Notes under the pieces: model-generated
What the model saw: the letters and a program-made list of their open reading frames with translations, nothing else
What the model was told of the DNA's origin: nothing
Databases searched by the model: none
DNA from: Archaeoglobus sulfaticallidus PM70-1
Lineage (GTDB): Archaea > Halobacteriota > Archaeoglobi > Archaeoglobales > Archaeoglobaceae
Assembly (NCBI RefSeq): GCF_000385565.1
Contig: NC_021169.1
Location: 868,001 to 932,000 of the forward strand
Length of the DNA: 64,000 nucleotides
Direction of reading: 5' to 3'
Shown: piece by piece, positions 5,533 through 26,826 of the stretch
Layout of the letters: every line of letters begins with the position of its first letter
Position numbering within the stretch: position 1 is the first letter of the stretch
Made by a program: the position numbers and the translations under genes

Positions 5533-5605
5533 AGCCCCGTGGTGTAGTGGTCAATCATGCGGGCCTTTGGAGCCCGCGACCGGGGTTCGAATCCCCGCGG
5601 GGCTA
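5533..5605 (+). tRNA. tRNA-Gln (anticodon UUG)
   Basis: The acceptor stem AGCCCCG (5533-5539) pairs with CGGGGCT (5598-5604), followed by discriminator A5605. The anticodon stem CGGGC/GCCCG encloses the loop CTTTGGA with anticodon TTG. The T stem CGGGG/CCCCG encloses TTCGAAT. CCA is not encoded. The 3' end from 5590 is the left core of an integrated element, and the tRNA remains intact. In archaea Gln-tRNA is made from Glu-tRNA by GatDE; gatD lies at 52.7 kb. Confidence 0.96.
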
Positions 5606-5607
5606 TA
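5590..5607. repeat. attL core of the integrated element
   Basis: The 18-bp sequence AATCCCCGCGGGGCTATA covers the 3' part of the T arm, the acceptor strand and two bases beyond tRNA-Gln. It is repeated exactly at 26809-26826. The flanking bases differ on both sides. The integrase gene begins 42 bp downstream. Confidence 0.93.
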
Positions 5608-5648: not shown

Positions 5649-6866
5649 ATGGACTATATGGAGAAATTTCACAAAGGGAAGGCAAGACTCGAGAAACAAA
5701 TCCTACTTTTACATAATTTGGAACCTGAGAATAGGGACATCCTGTTCAAGTTCAAGGATTATCTGGTTTCCGAGTCAATCTCTCCCTTGCGGATCTTGAG
5801 GTATGTTCAGATTATGCGGATGACCTCAGAATGGGTCGATAAGCCACTTACTGAATGGGGTAGGGATGAGATCATCAAAGTGCTTGGTGAAATTGAAACA
5901 AGAAATTACAAAGTTGGAACCAAAAATGAGTTTAGAAAAGCCATGAAGAAGTTTTTCAGATGGTTGCATGGTGAGAACTGGGAAAATTTGAAGCTTTTGA
6001 AAAAATTGAAGGAAAAGAATAGGTTACCTGTGATTTTAAGCGAAGAAGAAGTATTCAGGATGGTTGAGGTTGCGGAGCATCCTCGAGATAAGGCAATGAT
6101 TGCGGTGTGGTATGAGGCAGGTTTGAGAGTTGCTGAATTGGCAACTTTGCAGATTAAAGACATTGTATGGTATGAGCAAAAGGATGAGTTAAGAGCCAAG
6201 ATTAAGGTTAGGGGAAAGACAGGTGAACGAGTTATTCCACTTGTTCTTTCGGTTCAGTATCTCAAAAGATGGATTGACATGCATCCTTTTAGGGATGATT
6301 TGAATGCTATAGTGTTTTGCAGTTTTGCGAAGCAGAATTATGGAGGGGTTATTGATTACCAACCTTTATTGAGAAAAGTTAAAGAAATAGCCAAAAAGGC
6401 AGGTATTAGAAAAAGAGTTTATACCCACATATTGAGACATTCAAGGGCTTCTGTTCTTGCTAATTATTTAACTGAGGCTCAGATGTGTGAATATTTTGGT
6501 TGGGAACAGGGTTCCGATATGCCTAAAATATATGTTCATTTGTCTGGAAGGGATATTGATAAGGCTGTGCTTCGAATATACGGGCTAGAAAATGAGGAAA
6601 AAGAGGACGATAAGCTGGAACCTAAAAGATGTCCTCGTTGTAATTACCTTAATGCACCGACAGACAGATTTTGTGGAAGATGTGCTTTGATATTGGATGA
6701 AGAAGAGCGATTAAGGTTTGAATTGAATGAATTGAAAGCAGTGGATGAGTTAACCAAGTTAGTTGCTAATAATCCCGAGCTTGTAATGAAAGCTAAGGAG
6801 ATGTTGGAATTAGTTGAAAGACTGAATGATTATCAAGTTGTCAAGGCTTTTTTGGAGCAGTTTTGA
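5649..6866 (+). CDS. Tyrosine recombinase (integrase) with C-terminal zinc ribbon
   Basis: This 405-residue XerC/D-like integrase has an N-terminal core-binding domain (about 1-115) and a catalytic domain. Visible catalytic residues are R160 (in 'AGLRVAEL'), H260-I-L-R263, a tryptophan in the third box ('FGWEQ') and nucleophile Y295 ('IYVHLSG'). A zinc ribbon C328-x2-C331...C342-x2-C345 follows, then a helical tail. It would recombine the 18-bp core in tRNA-Gln. The gene is not split by the att site, unlike SSV-type integrases. A TATA-like stretch near 5617-5625 suggests a nearly leaderless transcript. ATG 5658 is an alternative start. Confidence 0.95.
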   Translation: MDYMEKFHKGKARLEKQILLLHNLEPENRDILFKFKDYLVSESISPLRILRYVQIMRMTSEWVDKPLTEWGRDEIIKVLGEIETRNYKVGTKNEFRKAMKKFFRWLHGENWENLKLLKKLKEKNRLPVILSEEEVFRMVEVAEHPRDKAMIAVWYEAGLRVAELATLQIKDIVWYEQKDELRAKIKVRGKTGERVIPLVLSVQYLKRWIDMHPFRDDLNAIVFCSFAKQNYGGVIDYQPLLRKVKEIAKKAGIRKRVYTHILRHSRASVLANYLTEAQMCEYFGWEQGSDMPKIYVHLSGRDIDKAVLRIYGLENEEKEDDKLEPKRCPRCNYLNAPTDRFCGRCALILDEEERLRFELNELKAVDELTKLVANNPELVMKAKEMLELVERLNDYQVVKAFLEQF

Positions 6867-6882
6867 TTTTTTCCTTTAACCA

Positions 6883-6890
6883 TTTATATA
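6883..6890 (+). promoter_or_regulatory. TATA box of the structural gene cluster
   Basis: TTTATATA lies between the integrase stop and the GTG start at 6941, which has its own GGAGGTG Shine-Dalgarno at about 6925. Initiation about 25 bases downstream would give a short leader. Genes from 6941 to 12904 follow with overlaps and no other clear promoter. Confidence 0.55.
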
Positions 6891-6940
6891 CTTGAAACTT
6901 ATTTTCTGTTTTTGAAAAATTATTCGGAGGTGTTGAAGTA

Positions 6941-7912
6941 GTGGCGAGAAGGAAAATTAAGAAGGGCGGGCTGGGTAACAACAAGCTGTTGTTTGAGGTT
7001 GCGGTTGGCATCGTTGCTTTAGTGCTGTTGTTCGGGGTGCTGAATACCGTTACACATACGAGTGAGACAGAACTTATAACTACAGAGGATCTAAAAAATT
7101 GCACCCTTGTTATGTACTATACTAAAGTTAATACATCTACTGGTTTAACAGAAGGCTCAGTTTATGCAAGCTATCAACTATCGGATATTGCAGTACTGAA
7201 GGATGGCTATTTGTATGTGGCGTTTCCTTATGATGTTGAAGTACCTGCGGGATACGACTTAGAAGTTGTACATTTTGGCATATACCTTAACAAGACTTTC
7301 AAGGATTTGATAGATCTTGGATGGAACGGTTATGAAGTAGAGTTTCAGTTAGTCAATTCTTCCGCTTTGCCAAGCTCTGGAACAATGTATTTGGGCTTAG
7401 ATGAGGCTTTTGCTGACGCGGGACATGACGAGATCGCGATTGAATCGAGGTGGGAAAATTATCTTAATCTTTCTAACATGTCATCAGTTCCTGCAAAATA
7501 CGAGGGAGATGTTGATCCTGCGGAGCTGCTGATAACTGCGAGCAGTATACTTGATAAAGAAGTTATGTTTTGCTTTGAACCTCTAACGCGTGTGTGGACA
7601 CCTGGAGATGGTCAATATAGAACACTTGATGGTTTTATATTGAAACTTAACATCTATACAGCATCAGAAAAACCAGTTCTCAAAGCCTTCACCGAGCCAA
7701 TCTGGGCGTTCATGGCGGGCTTGTGGTCAACTCTACTCGCAGTATACAACAGAGTTAGGCAGTATATTGGAAGTTTTGTCGGTGGTTTCAGTGTTTCAGC
7801 TTTCTTCACAGGTCTGATAGGTGATCCAGTCACGGCAGCGATCATCTCTGCGATCATGATTGCTGTGTTCTTTTTCGCACTTGTGAGGCCGGCACCGAGA
7901 AGAAGCAGATAA
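6941..7912 (+). CDS. Membrane-anchored extracellular protein, candidate virion spike
   Basis: The 323-residue protein has a basic N-terminus, a membrane segment at about residues 17-36, an acidic, asparagine- and threonine-containing external domain of about 200 residues with several N-glycosylation sequons, and a C-terminal part with an amphipathic stretch and a final membrane helix ('AAIISAIMIAVFFFALV') followed by basic residues. No enzymatic motif is seen. It is the first gene of the cluster and starts with GTG behind a strong Shine-Dalgarno. Its size and C-terminal anchor resemble spike proteins of pleomorphic archaeal viruses, but the sequence itself gives no family assignment. An adhesin-like surface protein is the alternative. 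Confidence 0.8.
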   Translation: MARRKIKKGGLGNNKLLFEVAVGIVALVLLFGVLNTVTHTSETELITTEDLKNCTLVMYYTKVNTSTGLTEGSVYASYQLSDIAVLKDGYLYVAFPYDVEVPAGYDLEVVHFGIYLNKTFKDLIDLGWNGYEVEFQLVNSSALPSSGTMYLGLDEAFADAGHDEIAIESRWENYLNLSNMSSVPAKYEGDVDPAELLITASSILDKEVMFCFEPLTRVWTPGDGQYRTLDGFILKLNIYTASEKPVLKAFTEPIWAFMAGLWSTLLAVYNRVRQYIGSFVGGFSVSAFFTGLIGDPVTAAIISAIMIAVFFFALVRPAPRRSR

Positions 7913-7927: not shown

Positions 7928-8413
7928 ATGGAAAAATTCTCTAATTTTTTTAAAGCATTTGACTTGGTTAAGGCGAGCTTTGCAATCACATTGATTCTCG
8001 CAGGAGTCTATGTTGTATATCCAGACTTATTCCAAGCGGGCGACAGGATTTGGAGTTTGCTTAAGGTTGGTATTGCAGTAGCTGCATCGATTGCCGGCAT
8101 ATACATTGTTTACAATACACTCGAGGCTAAGCGGGGTTATCTCACAGTGGGGGATCTGGCAGGTACAGTAATTGGGATGGGACTGATGTTTGTTGGTCTG
8201 TATTTGATGTTAGGGGAGGCAATTGAGAACACTTTTACCGGGGTTGCACAGACAGTTTTGCAGTTTGTGCCTTATGGCTTGAGTGCTATTAGCATGTTTG
8301 CGGGGATTCAGGCAATACAGAAGAATCGAAAAGAAAGAGCAGCGGTATTTATTGCAATAGCCGCAATATTTGCAATTGTTTCAATATTCAAGCCATTGGG
8401 AGTGATACCTTGA
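7928..8413 (+). CDS. Polytopic membrane protein, candidate virion or assembly protein
   Basis: From the ATG at 7928 this is a 161-residue protein with four to five hydrophobic segments: about residues 13-33, 45-62, 75-98, 108-128 and 138-153. The in-frame GTG at 7919 is part of the Shine-Dalgarno (AAGGTGAG) and is less likely as start. There are no polar catalytic motifs. The stop TGA at 8411-8413 overlaps the TTG start of the next gene, indicating translational coupling. Small polytopic proteins next to a spike candidate are typical of internal membrane proteins in pleolipovirus-like genomes. That role is inferred from context only. Confidence 0.8.
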   Translation: MEKFSNFFKAFDLVKASFAITLILAGVYVVYPDLFQAGDRIWSLLKVGIAVAASIAGIYIVYNTLEAKRGYLTVGDLAGTVIGMGLMFVGLYLMLGEAIENTFTGVAQTVLQFVPYGLSAISMFAGIQAIQKNRKERAAVFIAIAAIFAIVSIFKPLGVIP

Positions 8414-9444
8414 GATTCGTTCTTATTTTTTTGGCTCTTTTTGCTTTAGTCGCAACAGCATCAGCGTCAGTGTGGGATAATGCTGAAGAGGTCTTCCCTG
8501 GAACATGTTATTTTGGCGAGTTGACATATACTGGGGAGGTACATTATTACAAAGTTCAGCTTAGCGCGGGGAATTCAATAACGATATCTCTATCGGGCCC
8601 GGCTGATGCTGATTTTGATTTGTATATTTACGATCCGTCTGTAAATCTAATAGCAAGCTCGACATCAGGAGATTCAGAAGAGTCCTGCACATTTACAGCA
8701 AGCGTGAGTGGCTATTATCTAATTGAGGTTACGTCATGCTCTGGAACAGGTTCATACATGCTTGATGTCGGTCTTGTTTCAGGTGGTGGAAGCTCAAATG
8801 ATGGTGGGGGCAGTACATTTGATTGTAGTCTGATACCTGACTGGCTTGGCCCACTTAGAGATATATGTTACTGGTTAAGTGATGGTGCGAATAGCCTTAC
8901 AGAGGTACTAAACGGCTTCAAGCAATTTATTATTGAGAAAATACAGGCACTTACTGACTTCTTAGGTTGGCTTGCGAGTTTACCATTTCAGGCGGTGGAC
9001 TGGTTATTCAATAAATTAACAGAGATCACTTCAGCAGCAGTTGAGAATATAAAGAATGCTGTTGATGCGTTCATTAAGAGTTTAACAGATCTTGGGACTG
9101 CAATCGGGAACTTTTTTGGAGGACTGTTCAGTGCTGTTGGTGGCTTTGTCTCTGGGCTGCTGGAATCAATTCAGGGAGCGTTTGGATGGATTGGAGAGCA
9201 GCTAGGAATCGCAGGAGAGGGATTAACGGAAAATGCAATAGTCATTATCGCAATAGTGCTTGTTGCTGTTGGTGTGCTGTTCTTTAGACCGGCTTTGTGG
9301 ATCGGTGTGCTCTTGTTAGGTGTGTGGGGTCTTCAGCAACTCGCCGGACAGGGTAATCTTGTACAGGGATTATTTGGAGATTACAAGAACTTAGTAATGG
9401 TCATAATGGGGATTGCTGGTTTGACAATACTGTTTAAGAGGTGA
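8410..9444 (+). CDS. Secreted PPC-domain protein with helical stalk and C-terminal membrane segments
   Basis: The TTG start overlaps the previous stop. A signal peptide spans residues 1-20 ('FALVATASAS'). Residues about 25-120 form a bacterial/archaeal PPC-type beta domain, with the signature 'DADFDLYIYDP' and 'GYYLIEV'. A Gly/Ser linker follows, then about 140 residues of amphipathic helix (140-275) and two C-terminal membrane segments. PPC domains usually cap secreted proteases, but no protease domain is present here. The architecture of globular head, helical stalk and membrane anchor fits a virion surface fibre or a receptor-binding protein. Function is inferred. Confidence 0.82.
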   Translation: MRFVLIFLALFALVATASASVWDNAEEVFPGTCYFGELTYTGEVHYYKVQLSAGNSITISLSGPADADFDLYIYDPSVNLIASSTSGDSEESCTFTASVSGYYLIEVTSCSGTGSYMLDVGLVSGGGSSNDGGGSTFDCSLIPDWLGPLRDICYWLSDGANSLTEVLNGFKQFIIEKIQALTDFLGWLASLPFQAVDWLFNKLTEITSAAVENIKNAVDAFIKSLTDLGTAIGNFFGGLFSAVGGFVSGLLESIQGAFGWIGEQLGIAGEGLTENAIVIIAIVLVAVGVLFFRPALWIGVLLLGVWGLQQLAGQGNLVQGLFGDYKNLVMVIMGIAGLTILFKR

Positions 9445-10052: not shown

Positions 10053-10134
10053 ACTTCTCAGGAGATGGTTTAGGCGTAATTCTAATTTAAAAAAGATGTG
10101 GGGGGTGAAATCTTGTTTAGAAGGAAGAAAGTGA
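10033..10134 (+). CDS. 33-residue very basic peptide, unknown
   Basis: The ATG at 10033 has a strong Shine-Dalgarno (GGAGG at 10021-10025). The product is rich in Arg and Lys ('LLRRWFRRNSNLKK'), which suggests nucleic acid or membrane-surface binding. It overlaps the previous small gene by 20 bases and the next by 22. The strong ribosome site is the main support. Confidence 0.55.
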   Translation: MRLSRTKLLRRWFRRNSNLKKMWGVKSCLEGRK

Positions 10135-10340
10135 TAGAGGATGAAGAGGTTGAGGAGCTTAAGAAGTACAAGAAGGCGGCAATGTCTAAGCTCTTAATCG
10201 ATGTAGCTGAGGACATTGTAGAGGAGATCTACAAGAAAGTGATGAACAACAGCAATTTCGATGAAAAGCATAAGCTTGCAGTGTTTGAGGCGACAGTATC
10301 GGTTTTCTGTGCGATTAATCGAGACGATGAGCTTGATTGA
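10113..10340 (+). CDS. Small charged helical protein
   Basis: A TTG at 10113 follows GGGGGTGAAATC and gives a 75-residue protein. The GTG at 10098 would add five residues but lies upstream of that ribosome site. The product is highly charged and predicted helical, with 'EEVEELKKYKK' near the N-terminus and no membrane span. It may be a cytoplasmic or virion-internal factor. No family is recognised. Confidence 0.72.
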   Translation: MFRRKKVIEDEEVEELKKYKKAAMSKLLIDVAEDIVEEIYKKVMNNSNFDEKHKLAVFEATVSVFCAINRDDELD

Positions 10341-12904: not shown

Positions 12905-12967
12905 TTACTTTCACCCTACTCGCAACTTCTATTTTCATACATTAACATGATTTTACCGGTGGTGGGC

Positions 12968-13237
12968 ATGGAGGTTAAACAGGAGTTGAAGGATTACAGG
13001 TTTAGAGCCGTTCTGAGAAGCGGTAAGAAGGGTGATCATGCTATATGTATAGATGCAAGGAAATTTGCAATCAGAAACAATGTGAGTAAGAAAGGGGGAC
13101 TTTACAGGCTGAACCTTGAGCAAATTCAGCTTGAATTTGGAGAGGATTTGGCTATGGAGTTCTGGGAGGTTTTGATGTATATGCTACCTCAAGAAAGAGT
13201 TAAGGAAGCAATAAGAGAGTATGTGGAGATACTGTAG
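12968..13237 (+). CDS. Small DNA-binding-like protein with a truncated duplicate downstream
   Basis: From ATG 12968, behind GGTGGTGGGC, the product is 89 residues, with a basic N-terminal beta-rich half ('DYRFRAVLRSGKKGDHAICIDA') and a helical C-terminal half. A partial copy of the C-terminal half lies at 14099-14212. The fold may be a small transcription factor or accessory protein. No family is recognised. ATG 12947 would extend it by seven residues but has no ribosome site. Confidence 0.7.
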   Translation: MEVKQELKDYRFRAVLRSGKKGDHAICIDARKFAIRNNVSKKGGLYRLNLEQIQLEFGEDLAMEFWEVLMYMLPQERVKEAIREYVEIL

Positions 13238-13321
13238 TAATGGTCGATGTTAGGAGTTGAAATAACCCTATTTTCACTGAAAAAAGTAAATTTTTTAGAT
13301 TCTCAGCACCTCTAACCTTTG

Positions 13322-13966
13322 ATGGGCAATAGAACATATATCTACATTGATGAAAGTGGTGATTTAGGATTTACTGAAAAATCCACGAAATATTATGTAA
13401 TTGCAGCAGTCGAAACTAAAAATCCTCAGCAGTTTTCAAGGATGTTCAAGAAAATAAGAAGGAAGATGGGTAAAAAGAAAAAAGACATCAAAGAATTTAA
13501 ATTTTCGAAAACAAAATCATCTACCAAAGAAATGATATTGAAAAAAATTGCTGAACTTGAAATTCAATTTTCAGCAGTTGTATTAAAAAAGGCAACCGTT
13601 TATCAACATCTTAGAGAGAAAAGACAGATATTACATAACTATTTGACGGGTTTTATTGTAGAGTTGATTCCATTTATGGATAGTAGAGATTTTGAGATTG
13701 TTATTGATAAGTTCATCTCAAATGAAGCAGATAGAACAAATTTTGATGAATATCTTAGAGACCATGTAAATTATGAGTGTTGGAAACTTGGTTTAATTCC
13801 TCCTCGAAGCTTGAACATAAAACATGAATCGTCTTATAGTTGTTCAGGCTTGCAAGTTGCAGATTTTGTTGCTGGAGCCATATTTGCAAAATACGAGAGA
13901 AATGATGACAGTTTCTATAGAATAATTGAGCCAAAGGAGAGAATTTTAAAAAAAGTGTTTAGATAA
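13322..13966 (+). CDS. DUF3800-family protein
   Basis: The 214-residue protein begins with the family hallmark 'YIYIDESGDLGF', has a central 'FEIVIDKF' strand with aspartate, and ends with 'GLQVADFVAGAIF'. DUF3800 proteins are widespread in mobile elements and defence islands. Their acidic residues on an RNase H-like topology suggest a nuclease, but no activity is firmly established. Base composition is more AT-rich than the structural cluster, and a GC-rich structured stretch follows directly, so this may be an independently acquired cargo gene. Confidence 0.88.
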   Translation: MGNRTYIYIDESGDLGFTEKSTKYYVIAAVETKNPQQFSRMFKKIRRKMGKKKKDIKEFKFSKTKSSTKEMILKKIAELEIQFSAVVLKKATVYQHLREKRQILHNYLTGFIVELIPFMDSRDFEIVIDKFISNEADRTNFDEYLRDHVNYECWKLGLIPPRSLNIKHESSYSCSGLQVADFVAGAIFAKYERNDDSFYRIIEPKERILKKVFR

Positions 13967-14040
13967 CGGGACCCCACCTACTCCATCCCACCCTCCTCAA
14001 GGAGGCCTCATCGTTTCGGTGGGACTTACCCCATACCTAC
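13967..14040. other. GC-rich stem-loop island, possible structured RNA
   Basis: In an AT-rich region this stretch is markedly C- and G-rich. TCCCACC (13986-13992) pairs with GGTGGGA (14018-14024). Inside, CTCC (13993-13996) pairs with GGAG (14001-14004) around a TCAA tetraloop. Similar motifs ACCCCACCTACTCC and ACCCCATACCTACT flank it (13971 and 14029 on). GC islands in AT-rich hyperthermophile sequence often mark structured RNA. A terminator or recombination site is also possible. Confidence 0.4.
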
Positions 14041-14098
14041 TATATCCATATGGCATATATATGGTTTACTCTCAATCCAGTTATTTTCAAAACGGTTT

Positions 14099-14212
14099 CA
14101 GATTGAATTTGGAGAGGATTTGGCTATGGAGTTCTGGGAGATACTGATGTATTTGTTGCCGGAGGGAAGGGTGAGGGAGGCGAGAAGGGATTATGCAGAG
14201 CGGAAGTTTTAG
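14099..14212 (+). pseudogene. Truncated duplicate of the 12968-13237 gene
   Basis: From 14099 the frame reads 37 codons to the stop at 14210. It matches the C-terminal part of the gene at 12968-13237 nearly residue for residue at first (QIEFGEDLAMEFWE) and then diverges. The N-terminal half is absent and no start codon is available. It marks a past duplication with the DUF3800 gene and the GC-rich island lying between the copies. Confidence 0.8.
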
Positions 14213-15704: not shown

Positions 15705-17330
15705 TTATTTCCTCTCAAGCCTTCGTCTGACGGCTATGAATATGTTACCGAGGAAGACGATAGATGCTATTCTTGCCAATATGCTCCAGTTGCCATAACC
15801 TATATCTGAATTCACTGGTAACTGCAGGATGAGTCTCACAGTTTCAAACCATACAGACATATATTTTTGTAGGGGTGGGACTGGCGGATAGAGAACGATG
15901 AAAGATATCACAGAGATTACGAATAATAGCCATAAAAATGGTCTAACAAATGACTCTCCATATCGTGACATTCCATCATAGACACAATGAGCTATTTTTT
16001 CCGGAATGCTAAGATTCTGCTTCATCATTCGCATCTCCTTTATAAAGAACTCAGAAGCTTCGACAAATGTTCTGCTGTTCTCGAAGGATTTCCTAATGCT
16101 TCTGTACTCTGCCAAAACACTCTCTGACCTTAAATACGAAGAAAGGATTTTTACTGCCTCTTCGATATATTTATTGTCTAAATCGATAATATTATTCTGT
16201 ACAGCTTTCAGCAATTTCTCACTTAAAATTTTGCTATCTTTTATTTCGTGCGCATTACAAAATAATTTAATGCGAGAAACATCTGTTAAGAGAAAAGATA
16301 TGTTTGTTAACGGAAAATCAATGAAGGATATGGTTTCAGGATTCAGGAATGCACTTTGGCTAAATAAAATAATAGAGTTTTTCTCAATTTTTTTAGCATG
16401 AAATACAGCAATGTTTTTGAAAATTGTTCGTGAGAAATTGGCAAAGTAGAAAACAACTTCCCTAAATTCCGCGACATATTCAAATGTGGCATATATAAAG
16501 TTGGCATAAATAAATTTGCTGTTGTAAACCCTAATGCTTTCAAATCCCGCTCCTTCAAATGAACCTTCTAAGACATTCACGCTGTAGAAAATAGCTTTAG
16601 TAAATTTAGCTCTTAGAAAATCCACTTTTTGAAATTCAACATTTAAGAATTCAACTGTATCAAATTTAGTAAAGTCAAATTTAGCCATATTAAATTTCAA
16701 ATTTTGGAATTGAACATAATTTTCGAATTTTGTTTTCGTGAAAATTGCATGGTTAATATCTTCTTTTTTCTCTCCTGGCGTACCACTCATAAAAACTGCA
16801 GAATGAAATTTTGCAGCATTAAAATTTAGTTTGCTAAACGTGCCATGGATCTGTACAAAATCATAAAATTCTGTGCGTTCAAATACTGCTTCATCGACGT
16901 CCACTTCGAAAAAAATTACATATGAGTGAAACTTAACATTGCTGAAGTCAATATAATTAAATTGCCCATCATTTACCCAAACATCTCCATGAAATTCTGA
17001 AAAATTAAAGTATATTGAATTAATATTTCCATACTTCAATAGCGGTTCTGAAGTTAAGTCTATTTCTGGAAAATTATAACCTATGCAGACCAATTCCACC
17101 CCTTTTTTATAGATCTCTCTAACTTCCTCGAAGAATTTGTTTCTAACTTCATCAGGGAATTCTTTCCAGTATTCTGGATGATGGAATACACAATATCCGT
17201 CTTTTACAGCTTCGTGTGGACATTCATATCTAACCCGTTTTCCTTTAGAATTGTAGTAAGTGCTGTATTTGCATTTTTTGTTTTTTGTTTCGGTTTCTTC
17301 GTGTAATGTTGTTTCGTTTTTCTTGTTCAT
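15705..17330 (-). CDS. Pentapeptide-like repeat protein with zinc-binding head and C-terminal membrane pair
   Basis: This 541-residue protein has an N-terminal Cys/His cluster (C20, C38, C47, H50, H51) that probably binds zinc. A long right-handed beta-helix-like region follows (about 80-310), built of degenerate A(N/D)F-type five-residue repeats such as 'NFNAAKFHSAVF' and 'KVDFLRAKFTKAIF'. A helical region comes next, then two membrane segments near the C-terminus (about 455-475 and 515-535). The loop between these ends in 'SDIGYGNW', reminiscent of a potassium-channel pore loop. It overlaps the stop-start of the upstream membrane gene (ATGA). Possible roles are a membrane effector or a gated pore in superinfection control, both inferred. 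Confidence 0.82.
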   Translation of the reverse strand: MNKKNETTLHEETETKNKKCKYSTYYNSKGKRVRYECPHEAVKDGYCVFHHPEYWKEFPDEVRNKFFEEVREIYKKGVELVCIGYNFPEIDLTSEPLLKYGNINSIYFNFSEFHGDVWVNDGQFNYIDFSNVKFHSYVIFFEVDVDEAVFERTEFYDFVQIHGTFSKLNFNAAKFHSAVFMSGTPGEKKEDINHAIFTKTKFENYVQFQNLKFNMAKFDFTKFDTVEFLNVEFQKVDFLRAKFTKAIFYSVNVLEGSFEGAGFESIRVYNSKFIYANFIYATFEYVAEFREVVFYFANFSRTIFKNIAVFHAKKIEKNSIILFSQSAFLNPETISFIDFPLTNISFLLTDVSRIKLFCNAHEIKDSKILSEKLLKAVQNNIIDLDNKYIEEAVKILSSYLRSESVLAEYRSIRKSFENSRTFVEASEFFIKEMRMMKQNLSIPEKIAHCVYDGMSRYGESFVRPFLWLLFVISVISFIVLYPPVPPLQKYMSVWFETVRLILQLPVNSDIGYGNWSILARIASIVFLGNIFIAVRRRLERK

Positions 17331-18196: not shown

Positions 18197-18367
18197 CTAT
18201 TTCCTCTCCAGCATTTCATTAGTAATCTTCTCCAGATCTTTAAACAGAGCTTGAGAATGCCATTTCTCAAACTCCTTTTCCATTTCTTCTATAAGCTGAA
18301 CAATCTTTTTACCTAAAGGAGTTAATACATAGACCTCCGAACTTGTTGGAGTATTGTGAATGATCAT
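18197..18367 (-). pseudogene. Truncated third copy of the wHTH regulator
   Basis: The frame from ATG 18367 to the stop at 18197 encodes 56 residues equal to the C-terminal half of the regulators at 18501-18842 and 20841-21182. The shared core is 'LTPLGKKIVQLIEE' against 'LSPLGKKIVQLLEQ'. The helix-turn-helix half is missing. Its stop is immediately followed by the ATG of the membrane gene at 18196, just as the intact copy at 20841 directly precedes the HEPN operon. This fragment marks the original regulator of the membrane genes. Confidence 0.82.
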
Positions 18368-18500: not shown

Positions 18501-18842
18501 TTAATCTTTTTCTAATAATTCATTAATAAATTTCTCTGGATCTTTTTGTGGAGCTTTAGAGTGATATTTAGTATATTCCTCTTCGATTTGTTCTAAAAGC
18601 TGGACAATTTTTTTACCGAGAGGACTAAGCTCATAGGCTTTTGAGCCAGTTGGAGTGTCAAAACGGAGAGTGATTTGTATCAAACCAAGATCGAGTAATT
18701 CTTTAATGCCTTTGTGGAGATCTTTCTTGTAAATAGATTTCTCCAGTTCACTCCACCTTTTGGGAGAATCTTTTAATGAGAAAAGAATTGTCATGTTGGT
18801 TTTTTTTGTGATTTTTTTCGCAAGAGCGTATATGGTTTCCAT
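18501..18842 (-). CDS. Winged-helix regulator, copy A
   Basis: The 113-residue protein is a winged-helix DNA-binding protein of HxlR/PadR-like size. It has a helix-turn-helix (about 20-55, 'RWSELEKSIYKKDLHKGIKELLDLGL'-like), a wing with 'TPTGSKAYELSPLG', and a C-terminal dimerisation helix. It is about 60 percent alike to copy B at 20841-21182 by eye. It is divergent from a frameshifted ribbon-helix-helix gene at 18969. The TAGTTAGT/ACTAACTA palindrome between them is a likely operator. Downstream is the truncated third copy and the membrane protein operon, which it may control. Confidence 0.87.
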   Translation of the reverse strand: METIYALAKKITKKTNMTILFSLKDSPKRWSELEKSIYKKDLHKGIKELLDLGLIQITLRFDTPTGSKAYELSPLGKKIVQLLEQIEEEYTKYHSKAPQKDPEKFINELLEKD

Positions 18843-20840: not shown

Positions 20841-21182
20841 TCACTCACCCTCAATCAACTCATTAACAAACTTCTCCGGCTCCTTTGGCAAATGCGAATG
20901 ATACTCCTCAAACTCCTTCTCAATCTGCTCCAGAAGCTGAACAACTTTTTTACCAAGAGGAGAGAGCTGATAAGCTTTCGAACCTGTAGGAGTATCATGA
21001 ATTATTGTTGCTTCAATTAGTCCGAGATCGAAAAGCTCGTTTATACTCTTGGAAAGTGTTTTTTTATCAGCCAACTTCTCCAGCTGACTCCATCTTTTAG
21101 AACCGTCATTTAAGGCAATAAGTATTTTGAAGTTTCCAGTTTTGGAGAGTTTTTTCAGAATTTCCAGCAGGTTTTCTTTCAT
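20841..21182 (-). CDS. Winged-helix regulator, copy B, first gene of the HEPN operon
   Basis: The 113-residue protein is paralogous to copy A at 18501-18842. Both share 'KRWS(E/Q)LEK', 'TPTGSKAY', 'LSPLGKK' and 'VQLLEQIE'. The N-terminal half is a winged-helix domain and the C-terminal half a dimerisation helix. It is divergent from the RHH gene at 21311, with several GTTGG/CCAAC half-sites between them, and it is transcribed with the two HEPN-like genes that follow. It probably represses its own operon and perhaps the replication cluster. Confidence 0.88.
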   Translation of the reverse strand: MKENLLEILKKLSKTGNFKILIALNDGSKRWSQLEKLADKKTLSKSINELFDLGLIEATIIHDTPTGSKAYQLSPLGKKVVQLLEQIEKEFEEYHSHLPKEPEKFVNELIEGE

Positions 21183-22046: not shown

Positions 22047-22236
22047 TTTCAAGTTAGATAAGGAATTTTTGAAGTATTTGGCTGTTCATAGTTCTCCTTT
22101 TACTTCTGCCATAGCATTGGCAATTTTAGATGAAATGACGGGTGGTAAAGTTACGGAATTTAAAAAACAGTTAGAAAATGCTCCCTCATCGTGGGTGCAA
22201 GTCCCACAGGGAGCTAAAAAGAAAGGGAGGTGTTAG
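22030..22236 (+). CDS. Small protein of unknown function overlapping an RNA-like hairpin
   Basis: A TTG at 22030 follows AAGGAGGG and gives a 68-residue product with a helical N-terminal half ('KEFLKYLAVHS', 'AIALAILDEM'). The last 20 codons cover a tRNA-minihelix-like hairpin (22180-22215), so the C-terminal amino acids may be incidental. The stop lies just before the next gene at 22239. No family is recognised. Confidence 0.55.
   Translation: MDSDTNFKLDKEFLKYLAVHSSPFTSAIALAILDEMTGGKVTEFKKQLENAPSSWVQVPQGAKKKGRC
22180..22215 (+). ncRNA. tRNA acceptor/T-arm minihelix-like hairpin
   Basis: GCTCCCT (22180-22186) pairs with AGGGAGC (22208-22214) as a 7-bp stem. A 4-base linker CATC leads to GTGGG (22191-22195), a 7-base loop TGCAAGT, and CCCAC (22203-22207). 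Seven plus five base pairs with a seven-base loop are the dimensions of a tRNA acceptor plus T arm, and the loop keeps C56, A57 and A58 equivalents. It may be a tRNA-like element, a processing site or a structural RNA. Confidence 0.4.
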
Positions 22237-22238
22237 GT

Positions 22239-22508
22239 ATGGGACTGGACATAAGTGAGTTGTTTGGACTGGAGGAAATAGAGGTTGTGGATGCCCAGAC
22301 AGCCGAGAAGGATGGGCAGAAAATTTTGGTTGTGTATGGAAAGCACAATGGAGTGGAAATAGACGCAATTGGCTTTTTCGGAGAGAAGGCAATTGAATCA
22401 GCACTTAAGCACGGCGAAAAGAGGGATGGCAAGGTGTATCTGAAGGTTCCAGCGAAGTTCATAACAAAGGGTGAGAAGAGGGTTCAGTGGATTAACTCAT
22501 CATTCTGA
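22239..22508 (+). CDS. Small beta-rich protein, candidate polymerase partner
   Basis: The ATG at 22239 follows GGGAGGTG. The 89-residue product is beta-rich in the middle and end ('KILVVYGKHNGVEIDAIGF', 'KVYLKVPAKFI') with charged loops, which would suit an OB-like or other small nucleic-acid-binding fold. It is the last gene before a terminator-like hairpin and the polymerase gene. A single-strand binding or terminal-protein-like role is possible but not shown by any motif. Confidence 0.7.
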   Translation: MGLDISELFGLEEIEVVDAQTAEKDGQKILVVYGKHNGVEIDAIGFFGEKAIESALKHGEKRDGKVYLKVPAKFITKGEKRVQWINSSF

Positions 22509-22542
22509 GGAGCCAAGGAGAACACACAGCATTAAGCTGTAT

Positions 22543-22578
22543 GCTCCCCTATTATAGGGGAGCTTTATTTTATAAAAA
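22543..22578 (+). terminator. Hairpin with T-rich tail followed by a TATA box
   Basis: GCTCCCCT (22543-22550) and AGGGGAGC (22556-22563) form a perfect 8-bp stem around ATTAT, followed by TTTATTTT. It probably ends the mini-gene operon. TTTTATAAAAAG at about 22567-22578 is a TATA box for the polymerase. The stem resembles the acceptor arm of the minihelix 360 bases upstream (GCTCCC...GGGAGC). Confidence 0.6.
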
Positions 22579-22585
22579 GATTTCT

Positions 22586-22708
22586 ATGATTACAGAGTTT
22601 GATCATATCCGGTTTGCAGATCCGGATGATGAAGACTGCTCATGGATAGCAGTTTACAGGTTTAATGGCGTTGATGTTTGTCAGCATGAAGATCTATGCT
22701 CTCCTTAG
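22586..22708 (+). CDS. Possible 40-residue acidic leader protein
   Basis: An ATG at 22586 opens a 40-codon frame of acidic composition with three cysteines ('FADPDDEDCSW'). It overlaps the start of the polymerase gene by 13 bases. It sits only about 10-15 bases after the TATA element, so transcription may start inside it. It could be a chance frame. Confidence 0.3.
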   Translation: MITEFDHIRFADPDDEDCSWIAVYRFNGVDVCQHEDLCSP

Positions 22709-25700
22709 ATGATCTAAATGCGAGACAGGGAAATTTCGAAATTGATTTTGATGGAAATAGTGGTATTTCTTTAACTGATTTACCTTTTAATCGAAAGATA
22801 GAAACCAAGCGTTATTTGGACTCTTCAAGATGGTTTCCGATTGATCAGGCTTATGTTTTAGATATTGAGTCTTACAGATTGAATGCAAAGGTAAGGAGCA
22901 TTCAGCTTTATGATATTGAGAAAAAAACAGTTCATTTTTTTGCTCATGCTGAGATTGATGAAGCTGTAAAGGCAAGAATTTATGAAGAAATAAAGGGTTA
23001 CGGGATTGAACTTAACTTTTATCTGTTCAATTCAGAAAAGGAGCTTATTGAAAGTTTTTTTGAATTTCTGAGAAAAAATCCAAAGCATTTGATTGGTCAT
23101 AACATTGCACATTTCGATTTGGGGTTACTCAATCAGAAAAGGCAGAAATATAAGATCGAAGGCTTCAGATTCTTTGCTCATAATGTAGGAGCCGGTGAAA
23201 AGGAAGTAAGGTTGTATTTCTCCTATTCGGTTGATAATGATTCTAAAAGGGTTCCGTATGATGAGCGTTTTTTAATAGTTGATACATTATATATTTCGTT
23301 CACATTAAATTTACCTTCAAGACTTGCAGATTTAGCGTTAGATTCACCGTTTCCAAAGAAAGAGATAGACTATTCTGAGTTTGAAAAATCGTTATTGGGT
23401 TATGAAGCGGTCATATATTCTATTTTTGATGTTTTGAGCATTCCATATGTCTATAGTGAGCTAAAGAACAGAATTTATGATTTAACTTTGCAGTATTTGA
23501 AAGTCGAGGAAAAATCAAGTCAGCTCTGTTTTGAACATGTTTGGGAAAAAGGAACTGGAGCTTTAGCAGAAGCCTATCTTAGAAAGCTGATCGGAAGGGT
23601 TAAACCCTTTGTTTCAGATCATCAGACAAAATATTTTGGAGGTATAACGAGGGATTGGGTTAATGAGAAAGTCTTTCCTTCAGATGGCAGGGTTATAAGA
23701 AATCTTGATTTCACCTCTGCTTATCCTTTTGCTGTTGCCTATCAGGGTGTTCTTGATATTCTGAATGGCGATTTTGAGGAGTATGTTGATGTTAAGTTTG
23801 ATGAAGAGATTTATAACGAACTGTTATATTCGGCGGTTTTGCGATTTAAAGCTAAGAAAACCATGTATGTGATAATTGAAGTCGATAGAGAGAAAGACAA
23901 AATAAAAACTGTTAATGGAAAGAAGCAATGGGACATAAGCAATGCTTTTGGAATCGGTTATATTCGTTCATTTGATGGCATGGAGAAAGTTCAGGATATG
24001 CAACATGAGTTTGCCTTTTTAAAAGTGCAGAGAGGAGAGCACTTTATTTTAACTAAGGCTGAGTATGAGATGAACAGAGCATTTAATTCAGATTTTGATA
24101 AATTTGTTTTACCGTTGAAAATCGAGTATGGGCTGACTGCAACAAGGAAAGATAAAAGCCTTGAATATTTGAGTTTGTATGGACTCAGAAAGGAACTGAA
24201 GAAAAAAGGTGATCCCTCACAGGTTGCTTATAAGGTTCTGCTAAACTCATGTTATGGAAAATTAGCGGAATCAGAGGGAGAATGGTACAACAAGGCGTGT
24301 GCTTCAGCAATCACATCCTTTGTTAGAGCAATGCTTTTCAAGTGTTTAATGAAAGCTAAGGAGCTTGGTGTTCAGGTTTTGTATTCCGATACTGATTCAA
24401 TGTATGTTAAAGCCACAGAAAAGCAGATTAGATTATTACAGGATTATTCAAATAAGCTCAATCCATTACCCAAGGAGCTGTATGGAGAAGACAATCTGAA
24501 GGATGAAGGGGAAAACATAATCTGTTTTTTTGCTACAAAGAGAAAGCGGTACACAAAGGTCATTGAAAACGAGGATGGAAGTATAACGGTGGTTATTAAA
24601 GGCGGTTCCCATAGGGACATAACTTGGAGGCATATCCTCTTAAATCTCTGTTTGCTAACAGGTGAGTTTGATGAGGAAAGGATTAAAGAGGTTTTAGCCA
24701 ATAAAGAATTTCCAGATTACTTTCATTTTAATAGAACAGATTTTGAAAGTCTTTGCAGAACAATTTATGAAAAATACAAGGGTAAAGATCTATCAGAGGT
24801 TTTTCCAGAGTTAAAAACCAAAAGAGCGATTATAACCCTTTCAAGGATGATCAATTTGAGGAGAAAAAGCAGTTACAAAGAAGGGCTTTATCACTATTAT
24901 GCCGTTCAGGCTTGGCAAAATGAGGTTTGGAGAAGGGATCTTTTAGAGCATGGTTATGATGAATACGATAGATTTTTGGAGCTTAAAACCTATTTAAGTG
25001 ATTTAAAGGCTGAAAAGAAAAAGTATGATAGGTTAAAAACCTCAAAGTGGCAACAATTTTACGAATTGTTAAAAAATGAGCTTTATGATGAAAGTTATGG
25101 TGAATGGTTTGCAGATAGCGGAATAGCTGAAGAATATGCTTATTATTTTAGACAGTTGGCTAAGCGTTTGAATTTCACGGTCATAGATCTGAAGAATAAC
25201 AGATTTTACTTGAGTCTATTTGAGAAACTAAAGGAGTATTCAGATTTGAGGGAATTGATTAATTCTATTTCTTCCGTTGTGGTTGAGGATTATCAGGATC
25301 CCGGTGAGTATTTGGCTTACCTGGATGATGAAATTTACAATGCTGAAACTAAACTGAAAGAGCTTGAGGCTAAGCTGAAGCGTTTGGAGAAAGAAGTTAA
25401 GAAGGAAAAACCATATATCGGTTTATTCTTTGAAGTGTGGAAGGGATACAGGTTTGAGGAAAATTACGATGATATTCTGGAAGATTCTGTTTTCAGCCTG
25501 AATTATGAGCTTTATGCGGTTCAACCTAAAATTGTACCTGTTATCTTTAACAGAGATTACATGGATGCATTATTCAAACCGTTAGAGATCGATACAATCG
25601 CATTCATTCTGAGAGAGGGTATAAATCTGCAAAGGCTTGACAATATCAGTAAAAAGAAGTTCACAAAGGCATGTTATGGTTTACCTCACAATGGAAAGGT

Positions 25701-26772
25701 CAGGCATGATGCTCTTGCTGATTATGCTCTCCATATCAGGTTAAGGTTGAATGGTTACAAAGAACTGGATGATATTGAGGTTCTTAACAAGGATAAAAAG
25801 GCGTATGCGAATACTGAGCTTTTCTTAACTCCACAAAGGATCTTTTATGGGGCATTTAGAATAAATAAATGGAGAATGTTGGAGGAGCAAACAGACATTT
25901 TTAAGGTCTATTATGTGGCAATAAAGCTTCAAAATCTGATGCGTCAGTTTATTGAAGATCAGTTCAGAAAAAATGGTGTTGAGGTTGAAATACCTCGTTT
26001 TTCAATTTGTTATCAGATCGATGTTAGTCAGAAATCAGATGAAAACTTTGCTTTTGAGGTCTATAAGGCAAAATGGGGAAAACCCTTTTACACTTGGTCT
26101 ATAAATAAAACTCAAGGGCTACAATTAACAAAGTATTTGGAATGGACAATTTACCCAAAAGCTGAATCGGTTAAGCAAAAGCTTGAGCATGAAGAGCTTA
26201 CAGAGAAGGAGAAAGAATATTTTCTAAAAGAGGCTGAAGAAGGATGGAGAAGTGAAATTAAATTTAAGCTAAAAAGGAACATTGACATTGTTCTGTCTTA
26301 TGCTTATGTTTTCAATGCGTTGGATCATAAAAGCCTGTTAGAGTTTGTTAAGCAGTCAGATAGCTATTATAACGGAGTTATGAATGCATTTAGAAAAGTT
26401 AAAACCGTTGAAGTAAAATTAAGCACAAGATATAATGGTATTTTTATATTTGGAAGAGATAAAGTTAAGGTCATGTGGTTGTCATGTGTGTTGATTGAGG
26501 GTCATATCTTGAAATCAAGTATAGGCAAACAACCCTTTGACCTTGACCCCCTTGAGGGTCATGGGTTTGGCGTTGAACAACGCCCCCCCCAGAATGCAAC
26601 GGGGCAGGATTTTGATGGGTTTATAAATGTGAAGTTGAAAGGGAAAGAACGGTTGGGTTGTATATGGCAGATTAGACAGGATGATAAGGAGTTCGTTAAT
26701 TTTGAGGTTAAAGAAATGAATAGGATAGAGAAATTAGAGAGAACAGGATATGTTAATTGTATTAGGGATTAA
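22696..26772 (+). CDS. Family B DNA polymerase, protein-primed/primer-independent-like, with 700-residue extension
   Basis: The 1358-residue protein has a complete 3'-5' exonuclease domain: Exo I D56-I-E58, Exo II H135-N-I-A-H-F-D141, Exo III Y241-x3-D245. The polymerase motifs follow: A D338-FTSAYP, B K513-VLLNSCYG, C D565-T-D567, and K615-RKRY. The A to B interval is about 175 residues, against roughly 75 in replicative PolB and about 134 in phi29, so TPR1/TPR2-type insertions are likely. Residues about 650-1358 match nothing I recognise. They include coiled coil (about 885-915) and a segment D966-T...H1004-DALAD1009 resembling the second half of a DEDDh exonuclease. It would replicate the element genome. 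Terminal-protein priming or self-priming is inferred from the insertions, not shown. Confidence 0.9.
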   Translation: MLSLDDLNARQGNFEIDFDGNSGISLTDLPFNRKIETKRYLDSSRWFPIDQAYVLDIESYRLNAKVRSIQLYDIEKKTVHFFAHAEIDEAVKARIYEEIKGYGIELNFYLFNSEKELIESFFEFLRKNPKHLIGHNIAHFDLGLLNQKRQKYKIEGFRFFAHNVGAGEKEVRLYFSYSVDNDSKRVPYDERFLIVDTLYISFTLNLPSRLADLALDSPFPKKEIDYSEFEKSLLGYEAVIYSIFDVLSIPYVYSELKNRIYDLTLQYLKVEEKSSQLCFEHVWEKGTGALAEAYLRKLIGRVKPFVSDHQTKYFGGITRDWVNEKVFPSDGRVIRNLDFTSAYPFAVAYQGVLDILNGDFEEYVDVKFDEEIYNELLYSAVLRFKAKKTMYVIIEVDREKDKIKTVNGKKQWDISNAFGIGYIRSFDGMEKVQDMQHEFAFLKVQRGEHFILTKAEYEMNRAFNSDFDKFVLPLKIEYGLTATRKDKSLEYLSLYGLRKELKKKGDPSQVAYKVLLNSCYGKLAESEGEWYNKACASAITSFVRAMLFKCLMKAKELGVQVLYSDTDSMYVKATEKQIRLLQDYSNKLNPLPKELYGEDNLKDEGENIICFFATKRKRYTKVIENEDGSITVVIKGGSHRDITWRHILLNLCLLTGEFDEERIKEVLANKEFPDYFHFNRTDFESLCRTIYEKYKGKDLSEVFPELKTKRAIITLSRMINLRRKSSYKEGLYHYYAVQAWQNEVWRRDLLEHGYDEYDRFLELKTYLSDLKAEKKKYDRLKTSKWQQFYELLKNELYDESYGEWFADSGIAEEYAYYFRQLAKRLNFTVIDLKNNRFYLSLFEKLKEYSDLRELINSISSVVVEDYQDPGEYLAYLDDEIYNAETKLKELEAKLKRLEKEVKKEKPYIGLFFEVWKGYRFEENYDDILEDSVFSLNYELYAVQPKIVPVIFNRDYMDALFKPLEIDTIAFILREGINLQRLDNISKKKFTKACYGLPHNGKVRHDALADYALHIRLRLNGYKELDDIEVLNKDKKAYANTELFLTPQRIFYGAFRINKWRMLEEQTDIFKVYYVAIKLQNLMRQFIEDQFRKNGVEVEIPRFSICYQIDVSQKSDENFAFEVYKAKWGKPFYTWSINKTQGLQLTKYLEWTIYPKAESVKQKLEHEELTEKEKEYFLKEAEEGWRSEIKFKLKRNIDIVLSYAYVFNALDHKSLLEFVKQSDSYYNGVMNAFRKVKTVEVKLSTRYNGIFIFGRDKVKVMWLSCVLIEGHILKSSIGKQPFDLDPLEGHGFGVEQRPPQNATGQDFDGFINVKLKGKERLGCIWQIRQDDKEFVNFEVKEMNRIEKLERTGYVNCIRD

Positions 26773-26808: not shown

Positions 26809-26826
26809 AATCCCCGCGGGGCTATA
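26809..26826. repeat. attR core of the integrated element
   Basis: Exact 18-bp repeat of attL (AATCCCCGCGGGGCTATA), 37 bases after the polymerase stop and without a tRNA gene around it. It is followed by AT-rich host sequence with a 14-base direct repeat (TATAAATGATAAAT, twice between about 26823 and 26857). Confidence 0.93.

Follow-up and report, generated by a model that had tools for sequence, protein, structure and literature searches.

A large family B DNA polymerase with an orphan C-terminal extension in the Archaeoglobus element ArcSul-E1

ArcSul-E1 is an integrated element of Archaeoglobus sulfaticallidus PM70-1, reported in 2014 at positions 873590–894826 of NC_021169 together with a family B DNA polymerase (PolB, YP_007906966) that was termed ‘extremely diverged’ (Makarova, Krupovic and Koonin 2014; PMC4104785). 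A precedent for the gene arrangement described below is the related pleolipovirus His2, in which a PolB is found where alphapleolipoviruses have a rolling-circle Rep. The route by which RNA priming gave way to protein priming and self-priming in family B polymerases is an open question, and to our knowledge few lineages are known from the branch between the RNA-primed enzymes and the protein- or self-primed ones. We analysed the polB gene and its element in a 64,000-nt stretch of this genome (the window; NC_021169.1, 868,001–932,000, forward strand). Window positions 5590–26826 coincide exactly with the published coordinates, the window starting at genome position 868001, and the element and gene are those already reported in 2014, not a new element. 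In the literature that we searched we found no second paper naming ArcSul-E1, nor any account of the tree position of PolB, its relic, the palindromes within its gene, the replacement of Rep in its slot or the tie of the element to pleomorphic viruses, all described here.

Our preferred reading, held tentatively and a little short of evenly balanced, is that PolB is a replicative, proofreading polymerase that forms the one-gene replication module of ArcSul-E1, with its C-terminal extension supplying initiation.

Polymerase motifs and domain layout

The polB gene is the last gene of the 21.2-kb integrated element. It is a single open reading frame with an ATG start and no internal stops, and its product is divided as follows.

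22696–26772 (+): polB, family B DNA polymerase with 3′–5′ exonuclease and orphan C-terminal extension (1358 aa, YP_007906966)
22843–23475 (+): exonuclease domain, residues ~50–260 (Exo I D56/E58, Exo II D141, Exo III Y241/D245), from Pfam, alignment and model
23668–24615 (+): palm and fingers, residues ~325–640 (motif A D338, motif B K513, motif C 563–568, KxY 617–619, KG 635–636)
23749–24105 (+): region between motifs A and B left unresolved by structure prediction, residues ~352–470
24616–25302 (+): all-helical region, probably in the thumb position, residues ~641–869 (low-confidence model)
25303–26769 (+): orphan C-terminal extension, residues ~870–1358 (no database match; no usable model)

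Its sequence identifies PolB as a family B DNA polymerase with a 3′–5′ exonuclease, in which Exo I–III and motifs A, B and C are present with their catalytic residues. Pfam matches to PF03104 (exonuclease, 2e-8) and PF00136 (DNA_pol_B, 2e-9) both pass the cut-off. In an alignment with 28 viral PolBs, the exonuclease residues listed above fall in invariant or nearly invariant columns, as do D338/S341/Y343/P344 of motif A, K513/N517/Y520/G521 of motif B, Y563/D565/T566/D567/S568 of motif C, K617/Y619 and G636. These comparisons confirm the original prediction, made from the DNA letters and their translations, that all exonuclease and polymerase motifs are intact.

The spacing between motifs A and B was put at about 175 residues in that prediction and treated as unusual. 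The value is exact (D338 to K513), but the gap measures 77–166 residues in the 28 RNA-primed viral PolBs and 120–150 in 21 protein-primed PolBs, so that the PolB gap is long yet continuous with the known range, not anomalous. The length of this insert would suit a TPR1, but its fold is not resolved in the structure model (pLDDT <50). The B–C gap of 52 residues, which equals the median for the 28 viral PolBs, is frequent among protein-primed PolBs as well (48–102). This spacing is therefore uninformative on priming, and its use as an argument against protein priming was abandoned.

PolB departs from the viral enzymes at both ends. Exo I lies at residue 56, compared with 103–266 in the 28 viral PolBs, indicating that PolB lacks the domain of ~100 residues found ahead of Exo I in those enzymes. 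At the other end, 793 residues separate motif C (D565) from the C-terminus, compared with 217–325. Inteins were ruled out as the source of this size, there being no intein-sized insert in the spacing around motifs A, B and C. Two other large PolBs were noted by inspection: a ~1340-aa protein from the same archaeal family (L033) resembles an intein-bearing cellular PolB, and a 1159-residue PolB from IMG/VR (L082, 1277–4753) has an apparent intein between motifs B and C.

The structure prediction proposed earlier as a check succeeded in part. An AlphaFold2 model of residues 1–900, built from 29 aligned sequences, has a good exonuclease core and motif-B/C palm, whereas insert 352–472 and the thumb region fall below a pLDDT of 50. 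Residues ~640–870 follow the KxY and KG motifs of the palm, are all-helical in the model and probably occupy the thumb position. In Foldseek searches with this model, archaeal family B polymerases rank first and polymerases of the RNA-primed kind top the viral library; because the model was built on an alignment of RNA-primed enzymes, this ranking confirms the PolB fold only.

ArcSul-E1 and the replication slot of related proviruses

The tRNA-Gln gene at 5533–5605 contributes an 18-bp repeat whose second copy lies just past polB, and the element between the two copies carries the following landmarks.

5590–5607: attL, at the 3′ end of the tRNA-Gln gene
5649–6866 (+): tyrosine integrase, common to sister proviruses L139, L140 and L144
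11957–12904 (+): NTPase common to pleomorphic viruses of Archaeoglobi
22236–22508 (+): small gene upstream of polB, kept beside polB in the relic described below (92-aa frame from 22230)
22545–22563: inverted repeat (CTCCCC...GGGGAG) between the small gene and polB, within 22194–22585, conserved in the relic
26809–26826: attR, 36 nt past the polB stop codon

The NTPase has homologues in 10 other Archaeoglobi genomes (42–50% identity over most of its length) and matches the Thalassapleoviridae NTPase with an hhalign probability of 100 and an E value of 1e-71. Besides the integrase, the gene at 12947 and the winged-helix regulators are common to several of these sister proviruses. The proviruses that share the NTPase probably include AvPV1, ApPV1, GacPV1 and GahPV1 of the proposed family Thalassapleoviridae (PMC10919331), the match of the genomes to those viruses being made from gene content and published records. 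ArcSul-E1 also follows their gene order: integrase, membrane proteins, NTPase, accessory genes, replication gene and attachment site. Four sisters (L139, L140, L141 and L144) encode, next to the element end, a 619–674-aa protein with an HUH-type motif (HxHxH), whose GacPV1 counterpart is annotated as a rolling-circle Rep. ArcSul-E1 carries PolB beside its attachment site instead, in the slot of the HUH Rep. A third replication module is found in L142, where a D5-like helicase (DUF5906, Pox_D5; 6181–7710, −) replaces Rep or PolB. The orphan element ArcSul-E1 is now tied to pleomorphic viruses of Archaeoglobi, a group in which replication modules are exchanged.

Comparison of the element proteins with the VP3 and VP4 families by hhalign gave no significant match. 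Since VP3- and VP4-like proteins are undetectable, ArcSul-E1 is best regarded on present sequence comparisons as a relative, not a member, of Thalassapleoviridae. At the position of the sisters' VP4 fusion protein, 8410–9444 encodes a membrane protein with a PPC domain and weak tape-measure-like similarity; the virion module of ArcSul-E1 may thus be different from that of its sisters.

No terminal inverted repeats were found at the ends of the integrated form beyond the att palindrome. Together with tyrosine recombination at a tRNA gene, this gives no indication of a linear ArcSul-E1 genome with terminal-protein caps. Casposon traits are likewise missing: there are no terminal inverted repeats, none of ten element proteins scanned with Pfam matches Cas1, and the integrase is of the tyrosine type. 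Apart from PolB, the ArcSul-E1 proteins scanned include no recognisable polymerase, Rep or helicase.

Phylogenetic position and priming

In unrooted trees inferred with IQ-TREE under a mixture model, PolB joins the branch that connects RNA-primed with protein-primed PolBs, with support of 100/99 for protein-primed PolBs plus PolB and 99/89 for protein-primed PolBs alone. Trees from palm-only (99/98) and exonuclease-only (98/90) columns, computed without the longest rows, agree on this position. When four primer-independent PolBs (piPolBs) were added, they fell on the protein-primed side and PolB remained on the central branch. Approximately unbiased (AU) tests reject a clade of PolB with the piPolBs (p 0.031), with His1/His2-like protein-primed PolBs (p 0.016) and with small viral PolBs L074, L075, L076 and L100 (p 0.033), and fail to reject clades with RNA-primed viral and cellular PolBs (p 0.085 and 0.096); the tested groups were picked after the trees had been seen, which weakens these p-values. 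We provisionally place PolB, on a long branch, outside both the RNA-primed group and the protein- or self-primed group and between the two. An enzyme that falls on this branch whether the whole protein, the palm or the exonuclease is used, and that occupies the initiator slot of the sisters, would allow a direct test of the need for a primer.

The RNA-primed enzymes, such as RB69 and archaeal PolB3, give PolB its best profile and fold matches, have an exonuclease, and have A–B gaps of up to 166 residues. In profile comparisons PolB scores 159–173 over 462–541 columns with RNA-primed PolBs, versus 124 over 233 columns with protein-primed ones. The Pfam scan lists PF00136, and DNA_pol_B_2 (PF03175) is absent from it at E values up to 10. 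The KxY and KG-type motifs of PolB align with those of the RNA-primed enzymes. These matches, the failure of the AU tests to reject the RNA-primed clades and the circular-type integration favour a possible alternative, clearly less probable than our preferred reading: PolB would be an RNA-primed replicative polymerase that diverged through life in a mobile element and extends host-primase primers on a circular element, its extension serving as a structural, processivity or host-interaction module. The trees, however, put PolB outside the RNA-primed group with high support (100/99, 99/98 and 98/90). PolB also lacks the N-terminal domain present in the 28 viral RNA-primed PolBs, which have at least 100 residues before Exo I and 217–325 after motif C, whereas in PolB Exo I starts at residue 56 and the stretch past motif C is 793 residues long. 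ArcSul-E1 would, moreover, be left with no recognised initiator.

The original prediction had set PolB against the protein-primed type and offered a fused terminal protein, a primer-independence module or a processivity domain as explanations of its C-terminus. PolB is indeed a mobile-element polymerase, distinct from ordinary cellular PolBs, that adjoins the protein-primed and primer-independent group in trees. With the protein-primed PolBs (phi29, PRD1, His1, His2, ABV) it shares the lack of an N-terminal domain, LNSxYGK in motif B and a neighbouring branch, as sister to their clade. Its B–C spacing matches many of them, and His2 provides a precedent. Protein priming itself was not borne out: PolB matches PF00136 and not DNA_pol_B_2, lies outside the protein-primed clade with His-like membership rejected (p 0.016), and is far longer than these enzymes. 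Att-type integration implies a circular form, and the att palindrome is the only terminal inverted repeat seen at the element's ends. A protein-primed polymerase with its terminal protein fused within the C-terminal extension is accordingly the least likely of the ideas first put forward, and we consider it quite improbable.

The piPolBs of pipolins (pSE-12228-03, pLME300) resemble PolB in being large polymerases on circular or integrating elements. PolB might work as they do, without a primer, having arisen separately and with priming carried out by the insert or the extension. A neighbouring tree position, a similar life style and the large size of plasmid piPolBs (1007–1146 aa) are consistent with this mechanism. 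We nevertheless think it unlikely, given that a clade with piPolBs is rejected (p 0.031), that the KTRG string is absent from PolB and that the PolB extension is unlike that of piPolBs. The four small viral PolBs (582–596 aa) share with PolB the lack of an N-terminal domain before Exo I and differ in having a short A–B gap and no extension.

A bolder proposal is that PolB alone represents, among known proteins, a family B lineage branching between RNA-primed and protein- or self-primed polymerases, in which the extension would initiate by a mechanism of its own and one polypeptide would replace both Rep and primase. We regard this as doubtful, about half as probable as the RNA-primed alternative and slightly more so than pipolin-like priming.

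C-terminal extension, relic and palindromic element

Residues 650–1358 have no match in Pfam, NCBIfam or PDB sequence searches, nor in phage records. The C-terminus of about 700 residues was originally described as belonging to no recognised family. The lack of matches stands and no unrelated known enzyme was matched, but the stretch includes the thumb position. With residues ~640–870 assigned there, the orphan extension is counted from ~870 and comprises ~490 residues. An AlphaFold2 model of residues 900–1358 alone has a pLDDT of 31.5 and gives no usable fold. Compared with the N-terminal part of PolB, with Rep, with the NTPase and with the piPolB tail, the extension is similar to none. A DnaQ/ExoI-like motif spotted by eye at aa ~960–1020 (RHDALADYALHI) is unsupported by Pfam or PDB sequence searches and is not claimed.

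No full-length relative of PolB turned up when IMG/VR, GTDB contigs, phages and plasmids were scanned. The sole relative found is a relic in an Archaeoglobi metagenome-assembled genome (JAPDIW010000005.1; L032/L057), in which residues 1–152 (71–72% identity) are joined directly to residues 1250–1358 (65%), residues 153–1249 being missing. Elsewhere the relic is interrupted by stops and contains a broken stretch, and the 92-aa gene upstream is retained. Differences between PolB and the relic at the three codon positions number 38/26/70 in aa 1–152 and 4/2/14 in aa 1322–1358, indicating protein-level selection at both ends of polB.

Near its 3′ end the gene contains a further feature, which is conserved at the DNA level in the relic and stands alone in a third genome.

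26500–26610: palindromic DNA element within polB, aa ~1269–1305

This block contains several inverted repeats, and its differences are spread evenly across codon positions (5/4/4, few sites). The copy in the relic genome lies at about 10100–10250 (−) of L032. The copy in the third Archaeoglobi genome (L047, 6665–6799, −) is 84.7% identical over 98 nt and lies outside any recognisable polB; there, two copies of the element's CTTGAAATCAAGTATAG unit make a strong hairpin. The DNA fold of the stand-alone copy is exceptional (z −5.4), and that of the copy in polB is unexceptional (z −1.5). The element may serve as an origin-like site, or it may be a mobile repeat inserted in frame. Of the C-terminal matches in other Archaeoglobi, one is the palindromic DNA element and another, in G141, was unsupported on reading.

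These findings also bear on whether polB is a decaying gene, in which loss of a stop codon and insertion of a palindromic repeat have extended the reading frame at the C-terminal end. In favour of decay, a TAA in both other copies of the palindromic element corresponds to CAA in polB, and the one relative of PolB that turned up is an internally deleted pseudogene. Against decay, residues 1322–1358, which lie past the palindromic element, are strongly constrained in frame (4/2/14), and the catalytic residues and both att sites are intact. We judge this explanation the least probable of all those considered, and very unlikely.

In the reading that we prefer, PolB would replicate ArcSul-E1, an integrase-bearing relative of the pleomorphic viruses of Archaeoglobi that would take a circular form, and would by itself constitute the replication module in the HUH Rep slot beside the attachment site. 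The C-terminal extension would stand in for the missing Rep, recognising an origin and starting synthesis either on its own or through a recruited host primer; a possible site for this is the palindromic DNA element in the 3′ end of polB itself. In favour of this proposal are the intact motifs, the limits and identity of the element, the genes and the slot that it has in common with the sister proviruses, the lack of another recognisable replication enzyme among the proteins scanned, the tree position, selection at both ends of PolB and the His2 precedent. Several observations weigh against this proposal. The role suggested for the extension is drawn from gene context, with neither a fold nor a homologue behind it, and a single full-length PolB sequence is available. 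In one library the NTPase carries a DnaA-like label, and it could itself be the initiator, though it is present also in the Rep-bearing sisters. Finally, the palindromic element could be a mobile repeat instead of an origin.

Other features of ArcSul-E1 lie in its accessory region and around its regulators. An Rfam DUF3800-X RNA (RF02984, 69.5 bits; 13965–14035, −) is located at the 3′ end of a DUF3800 gene (13319–13966, +). The gene and RNA lie between the two copies of a 104-nt direct repeat, 80% identical (13125–13228 and 14097–14200), which amounts to a second, partial copy of the gene at 12947–13237, as if a cassette had been inserted between duplicated ends. Paralogous winged-helix regulators at 18501–18842 and 20841–21182 form, with a shorter similar stretch at 18252–18364, a repeat family (D1); homologues occur in sister proviruses, sometimes several per element. 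The accessory region also encodes a 541-aa pentapeptide-repeat membrane protein (15705–17330, −), whose homologue in another Archaeoglobi genome (L146) adjoins the NTPase there.

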